From Helicobacter sp. 11S02629-2 (lineage in GTDB: Bacteria > Campylobacterota > Campylobacteria > Campylobacterales > Helicobacteraceae): a stretch of 64,000 nucleotides of DNA. Below the pieces are notes generated by a model. That model ran no database searches. It was given only the letters and a program-made list of their open reading frames with translations, and was not told the DNA's origin. Positions 1,466-10,948 of the stretch are shown here, piece after piece (position 1 is the stretch's first letter; each line of letters begins with the position of its first letter). Where the stretch lies: contig NZ_MLAN01000002.1 in NCBI RefSeq assembly GCF_002272875.1, positions 62,001 to 126,000 on the forward strand, in the 5' to 3' direction. Made by a program: the position numbers and the translations under genes.

Positions 1466-1541
<76 letters not shown>

Positions 1542-1624: not shown

Positions 1625-2254
1625 TTAGTAGTTTCTACCTTTGAGTAAGTTCTTATTCCCACTAGCTATTAAAAAACGTCTTAGACTATCTCTATGAACT
1701 CCTACTCTTTTAGCTATATTTGCATGACTCATACCTTTAGCATCCCACTCTAGTATCTTTGCCATAGCATGATAGCAAGGATGTAGCTCTATTCTAGTTT
1801 TAGCTCCCTTAGGACGACCAAGCACTACACCCTCAGCTCTAAGTCTTGCTAAGGCTTCTTTAGTCCTTTGGGAGATAAGCGTTCTTTCTATCTCAGCACT
1901 TAAGCTAAAAGCAAAGGCTATAACCTTGCTTTGGATGTTGTCTCCTAGCTCAAACTTTTCTTTTAAAGAGTAGATTTGTACACCTTTTTCTACACACTCA
2001 TTTAAAAAAGACATAACATTAAGCAGACTTCTTCCAAGTCTTGAAAGCTCAGGCACTAGTAGTAAGTCTCCTTTTTTAAGCTTCTTTCTTAAAAGTCCAA
2101 GCTTTCTATGATCTATAGCTATTTTACCACTCATGGTTTCTTCCCACATTTCATCTATAGCCAACCCTTGCTTTTTAGCATAGGTTTCTATCTCAAAGCG
2201 TTGGTTTTCTACAGTTTGTCTATCACTACTTACTCTTATATAGGCGTATATCAT
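1625..2254 (-). CDS. Serine recombinase of the Hin/Pin (resolvase/invertase) family, probable TRD invertase
   Basis: This 209-residue site-specific DNA recombinase very probably flips the adjacent invertible segment. The N-terminal catalytic domain starts YIRVSSDRQ, with the nucleophile expected to be Ser9. The SRLGRS segment (about residues 70-76) carries conserved arginines. The long E-helix region AEIERTLISQRTKEALARLRAEG is followed by the GRPKGAKT hinge. A C-terminal helix-turn-helix (IAKRVGVHRDSLRRFL) completes the protein, and its length is typical of invertases. It lies outside the segment: its start is only 38 bp from the left 63-bp repeat. The ribosome site AAGG before ATG lies outside the repeat, but any promoter must lie largely in or beyond it, so its expression may depend on orientation. 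The family is certain; the role as invertase is inferred from position. Confidence 0.88.
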   Translation of the reverse strand: MIYAYIRVSSDRQTVENQRFEIETYAKKQGLAIDEMWEETMSGKIAIDHRKLGLLRKKLKKGDLLLVPELSRLGRSLLNVMSFLNECVEKGVQIYSLKEKFELGDNIQSKVIAFAFSLSAEIERTLISQRTKEALARLRAEGVVLGRPKGAKTRIELHPCYHAMAKILEWDAKGMSHANIAKRVGVHRDSLRRFLIASGNKNLLKGRNY

Positions 2255-2262
2255 CTTATACC

Positions 2263-2949
2263 TTGCAGATTGGTTTTAATAATGATATTAGACCCATTTT
2301 ACGAGGCAGGGATATAAAAAGATACTCTTACAACTGGGCGGGATTGTGGATAATTAATACTCACAATGGATATATAGATTCTAAAGGCAATAAGATTCCG
2401 CGTGTAGATATAGAGGAACATCCGACCTTAAAGTTGCATTTTGATTCTTATTATGACAAGTTGATAGTACGTAGTGATAAAGGTGATACACCTTATAATC
2501 TAAGAAACTGCGCATATATCGGCGATTTTGCTAGGCAGAAAATTGTGTATCCAAATATGGCTAGTGAATTTGTCGCAGTTTATGATAAAGAAGGATATAT
2601 GACCAATCAAAAATGTTTCATCATAACCAGTGAAACAGAAAATCTTGAATATCTAACTAGTGTTTTAAACTCAAAACTAAACTTTTGGTATTTTAAATTA
2701 ATAGGAGCTACTTTAGGGGCAAGTGGATATGAGATGTCAAAAATATTTGTAGAGAAACTACCTATCATAAAGCCAAGCTTTGAAAATAGCAACCTAATAA
2801 AATCAATTACTTACTTAGCAAGTGAAATACTAAAATTTAAAAAAGAAAACAAAGACGCGTCTTTAGAAGCACAAGAAGTAGATTCTATGATTTATAAACT
2901 ATATAATCTAAGTATCGAAGAAATAGAGTTAATAGAATCTAAAGGCTAA
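2263..2949 (+). CDS. Silent alternative C-terminal cassette (target recognition domain) of the type IIG restriction-modification gene
   Basis: This reading frame is not a complete gene. It carries a second version of the C-terminus of the large restriction-modification protein, pointing at it tail to tail. Residues PILRGRDIKRYSYNWAGLWI are identical in both, and so are their bases. The proximal part then differs, GDFARQKIVY is again shared, and both versions close with similar sequences (SMIYKLYNL...ELIES here; SIVYKLYGL...KVIES there). The exchangeable tail has 197 residues against 196 in the expressed copy. The apparent TTG start at 2263 has no ribosome site, so I infer that the frame is silent until inversion joins it to the main gene. 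Confidence 0.85.
   Translation: MQIGFNNDIRPILRGRDIKRYSYNWAGLWIINTHNGYIDSKGNKIPRVDIEEHPTLKLHFDSYYDKLIVRSDKGDTPYNLRNCAYIGDFARQKIVYPNMASEFVAVYDKEGYMTNQKCFIITSETENLEYLTSVLNSKLNFWYFKLIGATLGASGYEMSKIFVEKLPIIKPSFENSNLIKSITYLASEILKFKKENKDASLEAQEVDSMIYKLYNLSIEEIELIESKG
2292..2354 (+). repeat. Outer inverted repeat IR1, left copy (63 bp)
   Basis: This is a perfect inverted copy of 3611-3673, running from ACCCATTTTACGAGGCAGGG to GGGATTGTGGATAAT. In both copies it encodes PILRGRDIKRYSYNWAGLWI in the same reading frame, and it ends within the last Ile codon, so exchange keeps the frame. Outside the repeat the sequences diverge at once on both sides. It is the likely crossover site of the recombinase. Confidence 0.97.
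2520..2549 (+). repeat. Inner inverted repeat IR2, left copy (30 bp)
   Basis: This is a perfect inverted copy of 3422-3451 (CGGCGATTTTGCTAGGCAGA, then AAATTGTGTA). It encodes GDFARQKIV in frame in both tails and is flanked by diverged DNA on both sides. It shares the hexamer AGGCAG with IR1. It could be a second recombination site or the trace of past exchange. Confidence 0.93.
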
Positions 2950-3018
2950 AATATGCAGAGCAAGGTTGCCACGTTAGTTAAGACTTGTTTGCACTAGCTG
3001 TCTTTTTATTTTTATTAG

Positions 3019-6000
3019 CTAAGACTCTATAACTTTTATATCTTTTTCATCTAAGCCATAAAGTTTATAAACTATAGAATCTATAGTTTTTTCTAGCTCG
3101 CTTGTATCAGCGTTTATGTCTTGCTTTTTAGATTCTAGGATTTGGTCTACTAAGGCTATAACTTCATCGCATAAAGCTTGATTAATGGAATCTGGTTTTG
3201 GCACAGGTAGCAATTCTAAAAAAACCTTCTTGTATCTATATCCTTTTTCTCCTAGACCACCACCTGCATAAAACCTTTTAAAAGCAAAAGTGGCAAGCTT
3301 TGAGTGTAATAATCCCAAAAGATACTCCAAGTTACTACCCACCAAGATAAAGCTTGTAGCTTCTGCAAAAAATCCTTCATTAGAATCTAAACAAAACTGC
3401 GGTTCTTGAACTATCTCACTGTACACAATTTTCTGCCTAGCAAAATCGCCGTAATAAGCTATGTTGTCTTGTGTTTCAAACCACTTATTGCTAGTTTTCT
3501 TACGGCAGTCTTTTTCACCGCTTTGATCTATCCTTGGTCTAAAGGATTCTAAGTAAGATTTTAAACTAGGATAGAAATCTATATCTAATTTAAAAGCCGG
3601 GAATGTGCATATTATCCACAATCCCGCCCAGTTGTAAGAGTATCTTTTTATATCCCTGCCTCGTAAAATGGGTTTTATAATTTCAGCAGTTGCTTTTCTT
3701 TCAACTTCGCTTTTACAAGCGTTTAATATCTCATCTTTTTTAGCAGTATCTATGATAAAAGCTTTGTTATATCCAGTTTTGATTCCGTAGTTTATGGATA
3801 TATCCCAGTCTTTTAGTGAAGTACCTTTGCTTTCTATCTTAGCTTTTAGGTTGTAGACTGAAGTATCGCTAAATATAAAAGCTTCTTTGTTGAGATTAGA
3901 TATAGATATATTTGATGTATCAGAAGTGCTTATGTCTCTTGAAGTGGGATTTATATACTTTAAGTTATAGTTTGCTTTTGTGTGCCCTTTTTGAAATGAC
4001 AAAGTAGAAGTATCAACAGTGGCACTATCAAAAACTTTCACTCCATTAAAGTCAGCATAGATTAAAAGAGTAGTGTTTCTTAGTAAAAACTCTCTTAGCT
4101 TTTCGCCATACTTTGCACGGCACCATTTATTAGAAGTTATAAAAGATAAGATCCCTTTCTCTGCTAAGATGTTAAATCCAGCTTCATAAAAGTAAGTATA
4201 GATATCAGAAGTAGAGTTAAAAACTTGATAGTTTTTTAGTGCATCTTTGAGATCTTTGAGAGCTTCTTGTCTTATGTAAGGAGGGTTACCTATAACTAGA
4301 TCAAAGCCTATAAAGTTGCCATCACTATCTAGCACTTCTGGAAATTCAAAACGCCACTCGAAACTATCACGTTTTTTAAAAGTTTCATATATGTCCATAC
4401 TTTTAATAAGTGCATCAAAAACTTTTTTATCAACCTTGCAACACTTAGTTCGCGTATCTACTATCTTATATAAATTATAACTTTTCACATAATCATTCAA
4501 CTTATCTTTTATGCGACTATTTATTTCTATACCATCAAAACTAACATTATCTATACCACTATAGCCATAGCTTTTTAGATAGTTTGTAAGAAGATATTTA
4601 AAATTGACAGATTCTGTGGATGCTTCTTTAAACATAGATAATATAAATTCTTTAGATTTTTTTATATCTTCTTTAATAAGCGAATTGATACCCTTATCTG
4701 TTTCATTCTTATAGTTGTAAACTGCTTCTTTATATTTTGCTAGTTGCTCTTTAAACTTTCTTTTTAGATTGTCTGCAGTTTTTTCAACCTCTTCATAGTT
4801 GAGTAAGTCTCTTTTTTGAGATGCCTTAGTTGTTAGATCTTTTAATAAAGATTTTGTTGTTTTGCTTGTGTCTATATTAGCAACTAGCGAGTTACCACAC
4901 TTTATATTGATATCAATATTAGGCAGAGTGTTTAAGTCGTGATAGGTAGAATCTAAGCTTTGATAGTAGCTACTTTTAAGTAGCTCTATCCAAAGACGTA
5001 AGCGACAGATGGCTGCTGAGTTAGGGTTTATATCAACACCAAAGAGGTTGTTTTCTATGATGTCTTTTTTAAGGTTGAAAAGCTCTTCTTGTATCTTTTG
5101 TCTAGGGTCGTTTAGGTTTTCAGGACGTTTATAGATAAAAGTTTTAGAGTGGTTGTATATTACTTCTAGCTCGTCATTAACCGCGGTAATCTTATCTGCT
5201 TCAGAAAGCAAACCTAAAGTACTATATATCTCTATCATAGTATTAAGTGCTGAGACTAAAAAGTGTCCACTACCAACTGCTGGATCACAGATGCGAATGG
5301 AACCTAAAGTTGCTTTGTGTTTAGCTAATATGGCTTCACTATCACTTCTAGTACTTTTTTTCTCTTCTTGTATCTCTTCTTTTATCTCTGCTTTAATATG
5401 TTCTAGATATAAGGCGTTCCATTTAGGATTGGTTTTATTAAACTTATCGATAACAACTTTTTCTAAAGCCTCTTTACTCATATATGAGGTGATAAAACTA
5501 GGGGTGTAAAAACTCCCTTCTTTGTAGCCATTAAGTTTTTCAAAGACTAGTCCTAAGACACTAGAGTTTATTAGTTCTTTATCTTCTTTTAACTCGCTTT
5601 CATTATTACTATCCCCGAAGTCAAAACTATCTAAAAAAGTAAAAAGATACTCTAGCCAGTTTACTTCCCCATGTTTTTTCTTGCCATTAGTATCTTTTAT
5701 CTGAGTGGAGTTAAAGTACTCTAAAGACATGGCGTTATCTAAAGCACTCATCTCTATAAGCTCTTTTTCATCTCTTGTAAACAAAGAAGAGTTAAGGTAG
5801 GGGATATAGTCAAGTTCTCTTACTTGCTGTGAGTTTCTATTTTCTTTTGTTATGGCTAGGACTTTGAAAAAGAGATCATTTAACCTATCATAAGTCTCTA
5901 TTTTTGTAGTTGTTAGAAAGGCTAAGTTTTTATCGCCGTTAAACCTTATAAGACTAGATTCTAAAAGTTTTAGAAATAAGATTCTATTTATCCAGATGAT

Positions 6001-6963
6001 TAGTATCTGGAGGACATTTTCATTAAGCATGCCTTTTTTTAAATCTTCCATATCTTTATGGCTTTCAGTGACATTGCTTAAGATGTTGTAGTAAAGTGTG
6101 CCCTTTTGTTGCAAGCTTTCAGGACTAGGGAGGATTAAAACTTTACCATCTACTTTTTGCTCGCTTAGTCCAAGTAAGTAAAGAAGTTCATTATAAAAGT
6201 TTGTATTAAGCTTATTAGCATCGTTTGGATTAAACTCGCCTAAAAGAAAGTCTTTGCTAAAGGCTTTAAAATAGGGCTTAAGTATCTTAAGGCTGGATTT
6301 TTCATCTTTTAGTTTTTTTAGCTCTATGTCTTTTAGGTTTAAAAAAAGTCCATTTAGCTTAAGGCTTGCACCTTCTAAGTTCTTATCTAGGTTCTTGCTT
6401 GCTTCTTTATAAAACGCATTATTGCCCTTTAATAAGCTTTTATCGTCTATAAAGTTTTTATATAAATTTTTAAAGTCTTTATTTTCATAAAAAAGCACTT
6501 CAAAGTCCCTAGCTTTAAATATAAAGAATCTATAAAAGTCTGTGACGATGATATATTTTAAAGAAGTATTCCTATTCTCTCTTAGTCTAAAGTAATAAAG
6601 GATAGTTTCATGCAGGGCTTTTGTATTAGGAGTGTTAGCACTAAAAAACTCTTTAGATTTTGGTCTTTTAGCCTCTATGATAACTTGAATACACCCATCT
6701 TTTTTAAGGACTAAATCTATCTCACTCTTTCCTTTAAAGCCTTCACTTTTGCTTTTGGTTTGAGTAATAAAACCAAGCTCGGTAAATAATGGCTTTAAAG
6801 CGTCAGCTACTAGCGAGTCTTCACCTTGAGTTTGCAGGCTATCTAGGGTTTTAAGGTATTTTGTAAGTGCTTTTTTAAACCTCTCAAAGTCTTCTTTTTT
6901 TGCTCCATATTTATAGTAAAGCTCACCTAAAAATTCTTCTTTTCCCTCTTCTTTAAACCTCAT
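3019..6963 (-). CDS. Type IIG-like restriction-modification enzyme (nuclease, N6-adenine methyltransferase and target recognition domain in one chain), with invertible C-terminus
   Basis: The 1314-residue protein combines cutting and methylating activities. A PD-(D/E)XK nuclease is suggested near the N-terminus by Asp83 and Glu97-Ala-Lys99. The adenine methyltransferase has motif I DPAVGSGHF near residue 560, GVDINPNSAAICRLRLW near 640 and the catalytic NPPY near 893 (IGNPPYIRQE). A Lys/Glu-rich helical stretch lies between. The last ~200 residues resemble the TaqI/Eco57I-type specificity region and are encoded inside the invertible segment. Size and order fit the Eco57I/TaqI-like group; PglX-type methylases share the core, but no other BREX genes are present. 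The start follows AGGTTT with a weak ribosome site. It may be expressed alone, since the neighbours are convergent or unrelated. Recognition sequences are not predictable. Confidence 0.9.
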   Translation of the reverse strand: MRFKEEGKEEFLGELYYKYGAKKEDFERFKKALTKYLKTLDSLQTQGEDSLVADALKPLFTELGFITQTKSKSEGFKGKSEIDLVLKKDGCIQVIIEAKRPKSKEFFSANTPNTKALHETILYYFRLRENRNTSLKYIIVTDFYRFFIFKARDFEVLFYENKDFKNLYKNFIDDKSLLKGNNAFYKEASKNLDKNLEGASLKLNGLFLNLKDIELKKLKDEKSSLKILKPYFKAFSKDFLLGEFNPNDANKLNTNFYNELLYLLGLSEQKVDGKVLILPSPESLQQKGTLYYNILSNVTESHKDMEDLKKGMLNENVLQILIIWINRILFLKLLESSLIRFNGDKNLAFLTTTKIETYDRLNDLFFKVLAITKENRNSQQVRELDYIPYLNSSLFTRDEKELIEMSALDNAMSLEYFNSTQIKDTNGKKKHGEVNWLEYLFTFLDSFDFGDSNNESELKEDKELINSSVLGLVFEKLNGYKEGSFYTPSFITSYMSKEALEKVVIDKFNKTNPKWNALYLEHIKAEIKEEIQEEKKSTRSDSEAILAKHKATLGSIRICDPAVGSGHFLVSALNTMIEIYSTLGLLSEADKITAVNDELEVIYNHSKTFIYKRPENLNDPRQKIQEELFNLKKDIIENNLFGVDINPNSAAICRLRLWIELLKSSYYQSLDSTYHDLNTLPNIDINIKCGNSLVANIDTSKTTKSLLKDLTTKASQKRDLLNYEEVEKTADNLKRKFKEQLAKYKEAVYNYKNETDKGINSLIKEDIKKSKEFILSMFKEASTESVNFKYLLTNYLKSYGYSGIDNVSFDGIEINSRIKDKLNDYVKSYNLYKIVDTRTKCCKVDKKVFDALIKSMDIYETFKKRDSFEWRFEFPEVLDSDGNFIGFDLVIGNPPYIRQEALKDLKDALKNYQVFNSTSDIYTYFYEAGFNILAEKGILSFITSNKWCRAKYGEKLREFLLRNTTLLIYADFNGVKVFDSATVDTSTLSFQKGHTKANYNLKYINPTSRDISTSDTSNISISNLNKEAFIFSDTSVYNLKAKIESKGTSLKDWDISINYGIKTGYNKAFIIDTAKKDEILNACKSEVERKATAEIIKPILRGRDIKRYSYNWAGLWIICTFPAFKLDIDFYPSLKSYLESFRPRIDQSGEKDCRKKTSNKWFETQDNIAYYGDFARQKIVYSEIVQEPQFCLDSNEGFFAEATSFILVGSNLEYLLGLLHSKLATFAFKRFYAGGGLGEKGYRYKKVFLELLPVPKPDSINQALCDEVIALVDQILESKKQDINADTSELEKTIDSIVYKLYGLDEKDIKVIES
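3422..3451 (-). repeat. Inner inverted repeat IR2, right copy (30 bp)
   Basis: Inverted partner of 2520-2549, identical over all 30 bases, within the expressed C-terminal domain of the restriction-modification gene. The two copies bound a segment of about 870 bp that holds the distal halves of both alternative tails. Confidence 0.93.
3611..3673 (-). repeat. Outer inverted repeat IR1, right copy (63 bp)
   Basis: Inverted partner of 2292-2354, identical over all 63 bases, within the restriction-modification gene at codons 1098-1118. Everything upstream of it in the gene (nuclease and methyltransferase) is fixed; everything downstream is exchangeable. Confidence 0.97.
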
Positions 6964-8442: not shown

Positions 8443-9204
8443 ATGATCTTGTTTGTACTTTACATAATAGCAATCATAGCTGAAGCTATAACTGGGGCTT
8501 TGGCTGCTGGGCGTCACAAGATGGACCTTTTTGGCGTTATGCTTATATCACTTCTAACAGCCATTGGTGGGGGGACTGTTAGAGATGTCGTACTTGGAAG
8601 CTACCCAACTACGTGGGTGCTTCACCCAGAATACGTTTTAATGCTTTGTGTAGTAAGCCTTCTAACTGTTGCCATGCCTTACTTTCTAGCTAGATTTGGC
8701 AAGCTTTTTTTACTTTTAGATGCTTTAGGGCTTGTAGCTTTTAGTATCATAGGGGTTGATAAGGCTTTAAGCCTAGGTCATGGAATCATAGTCTGCGTGG
8801 TAGCTGGGGTATTTACCGGAGTAGCTGGAGGCATCTTGCGCGATCTTTTGTGTAATAAGATCCCACTAGTCTTTCAAAAAGAAGTTTACGCTGGAGTTAG
8901 TATAGTAACTTGCATCCTTTATTATCTACTTCTTAAAACGGAGTTAAATCACACTTTAATAGTAATCATCACACTAATTGTAGGCTTTAGTTTTAGGGCT
9001 TTGGCGATCTATTATAAGCTTGGACTTCCTGTGTTTAACTACGATGAAGAAAAAGCCCTAAGGTTGCAAGAAGAAAGGATAGCAAGACGTCAAGCTAAAA
9101 AAGCTAGGTTACATAAAGATGAGATAATCATAAAAGACACAGCAGCAGAAGTTAAAGAATTAGAAAAAGAAGTCAAAGACTTAAAAGATTCCAAAAAAGG
9201 ATAA
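8443..9204 (+). CDS. Trimeric intracellular cation (TRIC) channel family protein, UPF0126/YicG type
   Basis: This inner membrane protein is made of two homologous triple-helix units. The first carries LISLLTAIGGGTVRDVVLG and the second AGVFTGVAGGILRDLLC, the glycine-rich repeated motif of the UPF0126/TRIC family, whose studied members conduct monovalent cations. About seven hydrophobic segments fill residues 1-190. The last 60 residues form a charged Lys/Glu/Arg-rich helix (ARRQAKKARL...VKELEKEVKDLKDSKK) that is longer than I would expect for the family. It is followed after 3 bp by an SDR gene, probably co-transcribed. The physiological ion is not known. Confidence 0.88.
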   Translation: MILFVLYIIAIIAEAITGALAAGRHKMDLFGVMLISLLTAIGGGTVRDVVLGSYPTTWVLHPEYVLMLCVVSLLTVAMPYFLARFGKLFLLLDALGLVAFSIIGVDKALSLGHGIIVCVVAGVFTGVAGGILRDLLCNKIPLVFQKEVYAGVSIVTCILYYLLLKTELNHTLIVIITLIVGFSFRALAIYYKLGLPVFNYDEEKALRLQEERIARRQAKKARLHKDEIIIKDTAAEVKELEKEVKDLKDSKKG

Positions 9205-10114: not shown

Positions 10115-10948
10115 TTAGCTAAAAGTAGTAGTAAGCGTGCCTATTTTTTCTATCTCACACTTTACTACATCTCCTGCTTTTAAAAACTTAGGTGGATTAA
10201 ACCCCATGCCCACGCCACTAGGAGTGCCCATAAGTATGATGCTGCCAGCTTTTATAAGAAAGTAAGATGAAAGCTCTTCTAAAACATAGCCTATGTTAAA
10301 GATAAGATATTTTGTATTACTAGATTGGCGAAGCTCTCCGTTAACATAGGTTTTAACATCTAAGTTTAAAGTGTCTGGATTCTCATCTTTAGAAGCTAGG
10401 AGTATAACAGGGCCTAGTGGTAAGGAAGATTCTAGACTTTTGCCTGCGTAAAACTGCTTATGCTTAAGCTGTAAGTCCCTAGCACTGATATCATTACCTA
10501 TGGTGTAGCCAAAGATATAGTCTTTTGCGTCTTTTGCTTTTATATTATGGGCGTCTTTGCCTATGATTAAAGCTAGCTCGCACTCATAGTCAAGCTGGCT
10601 AGTTTTTGAGTTTATCTTAACTGTGGCATTTGGGTTAGTGAAGTCATTAACCCGTTTTGAGAAGTAGACTGCCTCTTCACGCTTGCCATCAAAGCTTTCT
10701 TTTTTAAACTTAGCACTTTCTTTGGCGTGATCCATGTAGTTAATGCCAAGGCAGATAACATCTTGCTTAGGTCTAGCCATAGGGGCAAGAAGCTCTACTT
10801 CACTAAGCTTGAAGCTTTTATCTTTCAGACCAAAGTCATGTTTTTTTATAAGCTTTTTGATGCTTTTTTCATGCAAGACTTTTATCTCTTCACCTTCAAG
10901 CACCCCAAGACTAACCTTATCTTTGTGTCTAAATCTAACTATCTTCAT
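10115..10948 (-). CDS. Fumarylacetoacetate hydrolase (FAH) family protein
   Basis: This 277-residue cytoplasmic metal-dependent hydrolase, hydratase or decarboxylase acts on an unknown 2-keto acid. The C-terminal FAH fold is clear from CLGINYMDHAKE, the metal ligands in DYECELALIIGKDA, YTIGNDISARDLQ, KSLESSLPLGPVI and SIILMGTPSGVGMG. A short N-terminal FAH-N-type domain (MKIVRFRHKDKVSLGVLEGEEI) precedes it. Length and order match the widespread YcgM/FahD-like group, whose members include acylpyruvases and oxaloacetate decarboxylases. It diverges from pgeF, with promoters in the 74-bp gap. No catabolic partner lies beside it. Confidence 0.9.
   Translation of the reverse strand: MKIVRFRHKDKVSLGVLEGEEIKVLHEKSIKKLIKKHDFGLKDKSFKLSEVELLAPMARPKQDVICLGINYMDHAKESAKFKKESFDGKREEAVYFSKRVNDFTNPNATVKINSKTSQLDYECELALIIGKDAHNIKAKDAKDYIFGYTIGNDISARDLQLKHKQFYAGKSLESSLPLGPVILLASKDENPDTLNLDVKTYVNGELRQSSNTKYLIFNIGYVLEELSSYFLIKAGSIILMGTPSGVGMGFNPPKFLKAGDVVKCEIEKIGTLTTTFS

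Follow-up and report, generated by a model that had tools for sequence, protein, structure and literature searches.

A putative nested DNA-inversion switch in the specificity domain of a single-chain type IIG restriction-modification enzyme from Helicobacter sp. 11S02629-2

We analyzed a 64,000-nt stretch of the Helicobacter sp. 11S02629-2 genome (contig NZ_MLAN01000002.1, positions 62,001 to 126,000; hereafter the window), in which a type IIG restriction-modification gene, a silent alternative copy of its specificity tail, and a serine recombinase gene lie side by side. Judging from its sequence, this locus is probably a programmed DNA-inversion switch that would change which DNA sequence a single-chain type IIG enzyme recognizes. 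It holds two pairs of inverted repeats, one nested in the other, that carry the same short motif: IR1 lies where the tails begin and IR2 halfway along them. Flipping between these repeats could leave the sister cells of one clone marking and cutting different DNA sequences. What we infer from this arrangement is that the recombinase acts on these sites, that the strain switches between orientations, that the recognition sequence would change as a result, and that methylomes and regulons would then differ. A first-pass annotation of the same DNA had already proposed an invertible tail driven by the neighboring recombinase. The locus layout and the way in which IR2 tracks the recombinase among relatives support both the inversion of the tail and the partnership with the recombinase, but the proposal was incomplete in that the second, nested pair IR2 had been missed.

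RESULTS

A type IIG enzyme with an expressed and a silent specificity tail

The three open reading frames (ORFs) of the locus were found as previously described. The largest (3019..6963, minus strand) encodes a 1314-residue protein that matches the PADLOC IIG profile over its full length (1190.9 bits, residues 1-1313), which upholds the earlier reading of a single-chain, type IIG-like enzyme. It contains Eco57I, MmeI_Mtase, and TaqI_C domains, and the residues of its nuclease-type N terminus were identified by sequence inspection only. Nuclease, adenine methylase, and specificity domain, the combination that defines type IIG, thus occur in one chain. The predicted structure of the C-terminal 435 residues, of moderate confidence (mean pLDDT of 73), resembles CamA, M.BseCI, BpuSI, MmeI, PglX, and M.TaqI, and this likeness supports a model in which an adenine methylase carries its recognition domain at the C terminus. 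The identification of the protein as a PglX of the BREX system was rejected, as the PglX model scored 108.7 bits against a cut-off of 500, whereas the IIG match was full length.

The alternative tail is carried on the opposite strand (2263..2949, plus) as a 228-aa ORF starting from TTG, which would replace the expressed tail once joined to the gene body. It matches TaqI_C on its own, with an E value of 1.1e-17 compared with 2.9e-9 for the expressed tail, and is open throughout and in frame at both repeat pairs. Promoter and terminator scans of the locus gave signals at the level of shuffled sequence only and neither support nor refute the earlier description of the silent tail as promoterless. 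A phage collection searched with the tail yielded weak matches only.

Two nested pairs of inverted repeats with a common motif

A repeat search recovered the perfect 63-nt inverted repeat on which the first-pass annotation was built. This pair, IR1 (silent arm 2292..2354, plus; expressed arm 3611..3673, minus), belongs to a 69-nt stretch at 97% identity, and both of its arms share the reading frame of the tails, as had been stated. IR1 encodes the peptide PILRGRDIKRYSYNWAGLWI, and the chance of identical codons under independent codon choice is about 10^-7.3, so that IR1 exceeds what protein homology or chance would give. Nested within it, at the peptide GDFARQKIVY, lies the second inverted pair, IR2, with 30 nt exact and 38 nt at 92% identity (silent arm 2520..2549, plus; expressed arm 3422..3451, minus). 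The two pairs divide the tails into an expressed front half A1 (3452..3610, minus) and back half A2 (3019..3421, minus) and a silent front half B1, from IR1 to IR2 (2355..2519, plus), and back half B2, after IR2 (2550..2949, plus).

IR1 and IR2 have ATTTTNCNAGGCAGNNA in common, read in different frames (ATT TTA CGA GGC AGG in IR1 and GAT TTT GCT AGG CAG in IR2). The motif marks four putative recombinase sites. The outer ones, ATTTTACGAGGCAGGGA, are at 2296..2312 (plus, silent side) and 3653..3669 (minus, expressed side), and the inner ones, ATTTTGCTAGGCAGAAA, in a frame different from that of the outer site, are at 2525..2541 (plus, silent side) and 3430..3446 (minus, expressed side). Coding coincidence as the source of the common motif was tested by a genome-wide count and by comparison with recombinase-less relatives (see below). 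In the 1.88-Mb genome, ATTTTNCNAGGCAGNNA has four exact matches, which are the four repeat arms, while about 0.08 would be expected from composition.

It might be argued that the recombinase inverts at only one repeat pair, giving a switch with two states, and that the other pair merely reflects protein homology in the conserved TaqI_C motif. IR2 is indeed short, its codon-identity chance alone is about 10^-3.1, and the DNA of IR1 is not conserved between species. However, the same DNA motif occurs in both pairs in different frames, the DNA of IR2 is conserved between species while that of the surrounding tails is not, and in Lactococcus a front half has moved without its back half, for which both breakpoints are needed. 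We therefore regard a switch with only two states as rather unlikely.

An Mpi-like recombinase beside the repeat

The recombinase gene (1625..2254, minus; 209 aa) had been placed beside IR1, and this adjacency stands, although the distance from its start codon to the repeat is 37 bp and not 38. The protein matches the Pfam Resolvase family PF00239 (E value of 3.9e-31) and the NCBIfam "master DNA invertase Mpi family" with 267.1 bits, just short of the curated cut-off of 272 (E = 9.2e-80). Because of these two matches, the enzyme is by sequence Mpi-like, and its earlier assignment to the Hin/Pin type was dropped. The catalytic-type residues R7, S9, R72, and R75, which are invariant in an alignment of 11 relatives, are intact in the window recombinase. 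Both the recombinase gene and the type IIG gene are present as single copies in the genome (61 contigs).

The locus could also be a decaying relic that no longer switches, the silent tail being a pseudogene-like duplicate. Helicobacter sp. 15-1451, which retains a recombinase beside fragments, and the Lactococcus plasmids pUCCL635A and pLLUC147A, described below, show that such states arise. Here, however, the silent tail is intact and the better TaqI_C match of the two, the IR1 arms are perfectly identical, and the recombinase motifs are preserved, and we consider decay of this locus very improbable.

Related recombinases also occur in other settings. A 64%-identical recombinase is found on Campylobacter plasmids (e.g., Campylobacter lari pCL2100, L160, 3001-3636) beside a surface-protein-like gene and DUF5710 genes instead of a type IIG gene. 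More distant ones of the Mpi type (L060, L061, and L062, in genomes G053, G137, and G031, respectively) have inverted repeats of considerable length, such as 376 and 382 bp, on either side, and there the recombinase gene itself may sit on an invertible segment.

Predicted products of inversion

We propose that the recombinase most likely acts on the short site that is present four times, with the outer inverted pair of copies located in IR1 and the inner one in IR2. Recombination at the IR1 sites would exchange the whole tail, and recombination at the IR2 sites the back half alone. With two nested inversion sites, the front half could be exchanged without the back half, which raises the expected number of full-length products from two to four. 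In silico, the order of the IR1 and IR2 inversions makes no difference, and together they yield four full-length proteins (1313-1316 aa), corresponding to A1A2, B1B2, A1B2, and B1A2, in which each half-tail presumably reads part of the target sequence. A mismatched inversion, which joins an IR1 arm to an IR2 arm, leaves a truncated protein (1192 or 1123 aa) in which part or all of the recognition domain is missing; such frame-shifting events would be reversible and the truncated forms are probably OFF states. The locus would thus switch reversibly among four specificities and the OFF forms.

Relatives in the Helicobacter family

We searched 121 genomes of the family, which holds several named Helicobacter sp. 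genomes, and counted one genome per species. Relatives of the recombinase at E <= 1e-40 were present in 11 of them, and the full layout in five (the window genome, G002, G014, G046, and G057). The first-pass annotation had suggested a search for the same arrangement in related genomes, where a reversed orientation would be supportive. Four further family genomes have the arrangement, and Lactococcus plasmids show inverted front halves (see below). The DNA of the IR2 site is conserved in all five full-layout genomes, each with one inverted pair, and at <=1 mismatch the site pattern is found in no other of the 121 genomes. The tails that flank IR2 are, unlike IR2 itself, not conserved between species at the DNA level. 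AGG[CT]AG is present at IR1 in 5/6 recombinase-linked loci compared with 0/13 type IIG genes lacking a recombinase (Fisher p = 0.0005).

These distributions bear on a further explanation, in which RecA-dependent homologous recombination or gene conversion maintains the repeats and the neighboring recombinase serves something else. Gene conversion would account for the IR1 arms, which are identical within a genome and differ between genomes, and for G002, in which the entire front half (345 bp) is identical between the arms. It does not explain why the recombinase remains beside the layout across phyla among the matches listed, why the IR2 site tracks the presence of the recombinase, or why the homology between silent and expressed tails starts abruptly at the site in Lactococcus. 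This explanation therefore seems unlikely to us.

The window type IIG body falls among recombinase-less genes in a phylogenetic tree, with full support, and away from the other four recombinase-linked bodies (about 40% identity), although the recombinase is 66-67% identical to the recombinases of those genomes. The module of recombinase and tail thus appears either to have moved between backbones or to have been lost repeatedly.

Several Helicobacter-family relatives (L035-L043, L047, and L052) carry extra same-strand cassettes, consisting of a back-half tail only, downstream of the type IIG gene. Simple repeat tracts (CT/AG x6-18 or G/C x9-11) are located at or near their tail/half-cassette junctions, in L043 directly after the tail (8499-8522), which suggests a second, slippage-based route for appending another half in these relatives. 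No such tract is found in the window. In G035, one contig (L014) ends inside the type IIG gene and another (L054) starts in an IR1-like tail beside the recombinase. A break in the assembly so near the switch could reflect mixed orientations.

As for the genomic setting, a tRNA-Phe gene (GAA; window 1466-1541) adjoins the locus, and such spots commonly take up horizontally acquired genes. The ORFs within 12 kb, judged by reading their translations, look like housekeeping genes.

Other phyla and half-tail exchange in Lactococcus

The first-pass annotation knew of fewer cases in which only the C terminus of a single-chain enzyme flips. The layout recurs across phyla and is less rare than was thought. 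In a survey of Genome Taxonomy Database (GTDB) genomes (80 loci listed, not a census), the same kind of layout was seen beside the closest recombinases in Treponema, Rufibacter, Prevotella, Porphyromonas, Fibrobacter, Lactococcus, Albibacterium, and others. Outside the family, it thus occurs among the matches listed in spirochaetes, Bacteroidota, Fibrobacter, and Lactococcus, and many of these loci have inverted repeats at the same two residue positions.

One recombinase protein (WP_021164920.1) is shared by the Lactococcus plasmids pJM1F and pUCCL629A, and a same-strand alignment shows their type IIG genes to be nearly identical as far as a single point. Beyond that point, the front half expressed in one plasmid corresponds, in inverted orientation, to the silent front half carried by the other (99.2% over 496 bp), and the reciprocal pair of front halves matches at 85%. 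GAGCGATTATGTACGACAAAAT contains the outer breakpoint, and GGACGATTTT, the equivalent of the IR2 site, contains the inner one; the two sites have CGATTWTKTACGACA in common, and it is at the site that the silent-to-expressed homology begins abruptly. The four back halves of the two plasmids are all different, which indicates that front and back halves move independently. These sequenced rearrangements, seen between strains of a relative, are an exchange of the kind predicted for the window locus.

In two further Lactococcus plasmids, pUCCL635A and pLLUC147A (L167 and L168), the type IIG gene shares about 98.5% identity with its pJM1F counterpart as far as the tail, and the recombinase and silent tail are absent. 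They carry another front/back combination, with a back half resembling that of L. raffinolactis, and are naturally locked alleles that would be useful as controls. In Limosilactobacillus and Pediococcus plasmids with similar fragments, the layout was not found in the annotation.

DISCUSSION

A published methylome offers a possible example of the proposed products. In Prevotella intermedia 17F, the type IIG gene Pin17FIII has a convergent short tail gene, and three related motifs, GGYGAB, GGNYAG, and CCNYAG, were reported, of which the cloned gene reproduced only GGYGAB; no inversion was proposed by the authors (PMC5608340). In our reading, which is not that of the authors, the motifs fit {GG, CC} x {GAB, YAG}, i.e., three of the four combinations predicted by a 2 x 2 exchange of half-tails. 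The Rikenella microfusus locus (L124), a relative of Pin17FIII, likewise pairs a type IIG gene with a convergent short tail gene, goes with several related motifs in the methylome, and has the recombinase. At 10118-10198 of this locus, the frame of the expressed tail stops soon past the outer repeat and the remainder is read in a different one, which may reflect an OFF allele or a sequence error.

Several points weigh against a programmed switch of the kind proposed here. The window locus is known from the single assembled orientation of one strain. The common motif ATTTTNCNAGGCAGNNA was read off the repeat arms after the fact, and the informative part is therefore that it is shared across two coding positions and frames and has no further copies. 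The outer repeat of G014 lacks the AGGCAG core (one of the six relatives), which makes IR1 less secure than IR2 as a recombinase site. The P. intermedia 17F locus was judged from its published description, and the motifs reported for R. microfusus (PMC5608340) form no clean 2 x 2 set.

A broader interpretation, to which we give about an even chance, is that the window locus represents a cross-phylum family of single-chain enzymes with a built-in switch of four active and additional frame-shifted OFF forms. In this family, Mpi-type recombinases would shuffle two half-domains, each of them setting one half of the recognition sequence, the module of recombinase and tails would move between type IIG backbones, and the several unassigned motifs in methylomes like the one of P. 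intermedia 17F would find an explanation. If the switch operates as proposed, one gene and one small recombinase would give a clone up to four restriction specificities with no separate specificity subunit, and nuclease, methylase, and recognition would always be matched within one chain. The swapping of half-domains would assign each half of the target to the half of the type IIG recognition domain that reads it, and this knowledge would be useful for both understanding and engineering these enzymes. Testable predictions also follow for methylomes already published in which groups of related motifs stand without an assignment.

Comparison with known systems

Milman, Yelin, and Kishony (2023, NAR) reportedly predicted gene-altering inversions in type II restriction-modification systems and validated representatives with long reads; nested half-domain sites are not known to be among them. 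BREX PglX variants with an inverted tail and a recombinase exist. They resemble the window enzyme in being adenine methylases with an exchangeable C terminus and a shared fold, but the window gene scores far below the PglX cut-off and is matched by the type IIG profile instead. In Helicobacter and Campylobacter, restriction-modification genes undergo domain movement, attributed to recombination at direct repeats (PMC3077401), and slippage of repeat tracts (Anjum 2016). As in those systems, the specificity or expression of a type IIG-type enzyme would change here, but by site-specific inversion and not through direct repeats or repeat tracts. In the literature searched, no direct report of an invertible type IIG tail was found.

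The closest parallel is the inverting type I HsdS, known as a four-way switch in Streptococcus suis and a six-way switch in S. pneumoniae SpnD39III (PMC7394358). Like it, the window locus has two recognition half-units with one inverted repeat pair before the first (IR1) and one between them (IR2), four combinations, and a recombinase at the locus. The window system was nevertheless rejected as a type I system, since there is a single chain and no separate HsdS subunit with HsdM and HsdR, although the logic is alike. Type I enzymes use a separate specificity subunit with two whole target recognition domains, whereas the type IIG enzyme has one TaqI_C domain that is split in two. Inverting specificity genes are already known for type I, and the window locus differs from them by its single chain and its split recognition domain.
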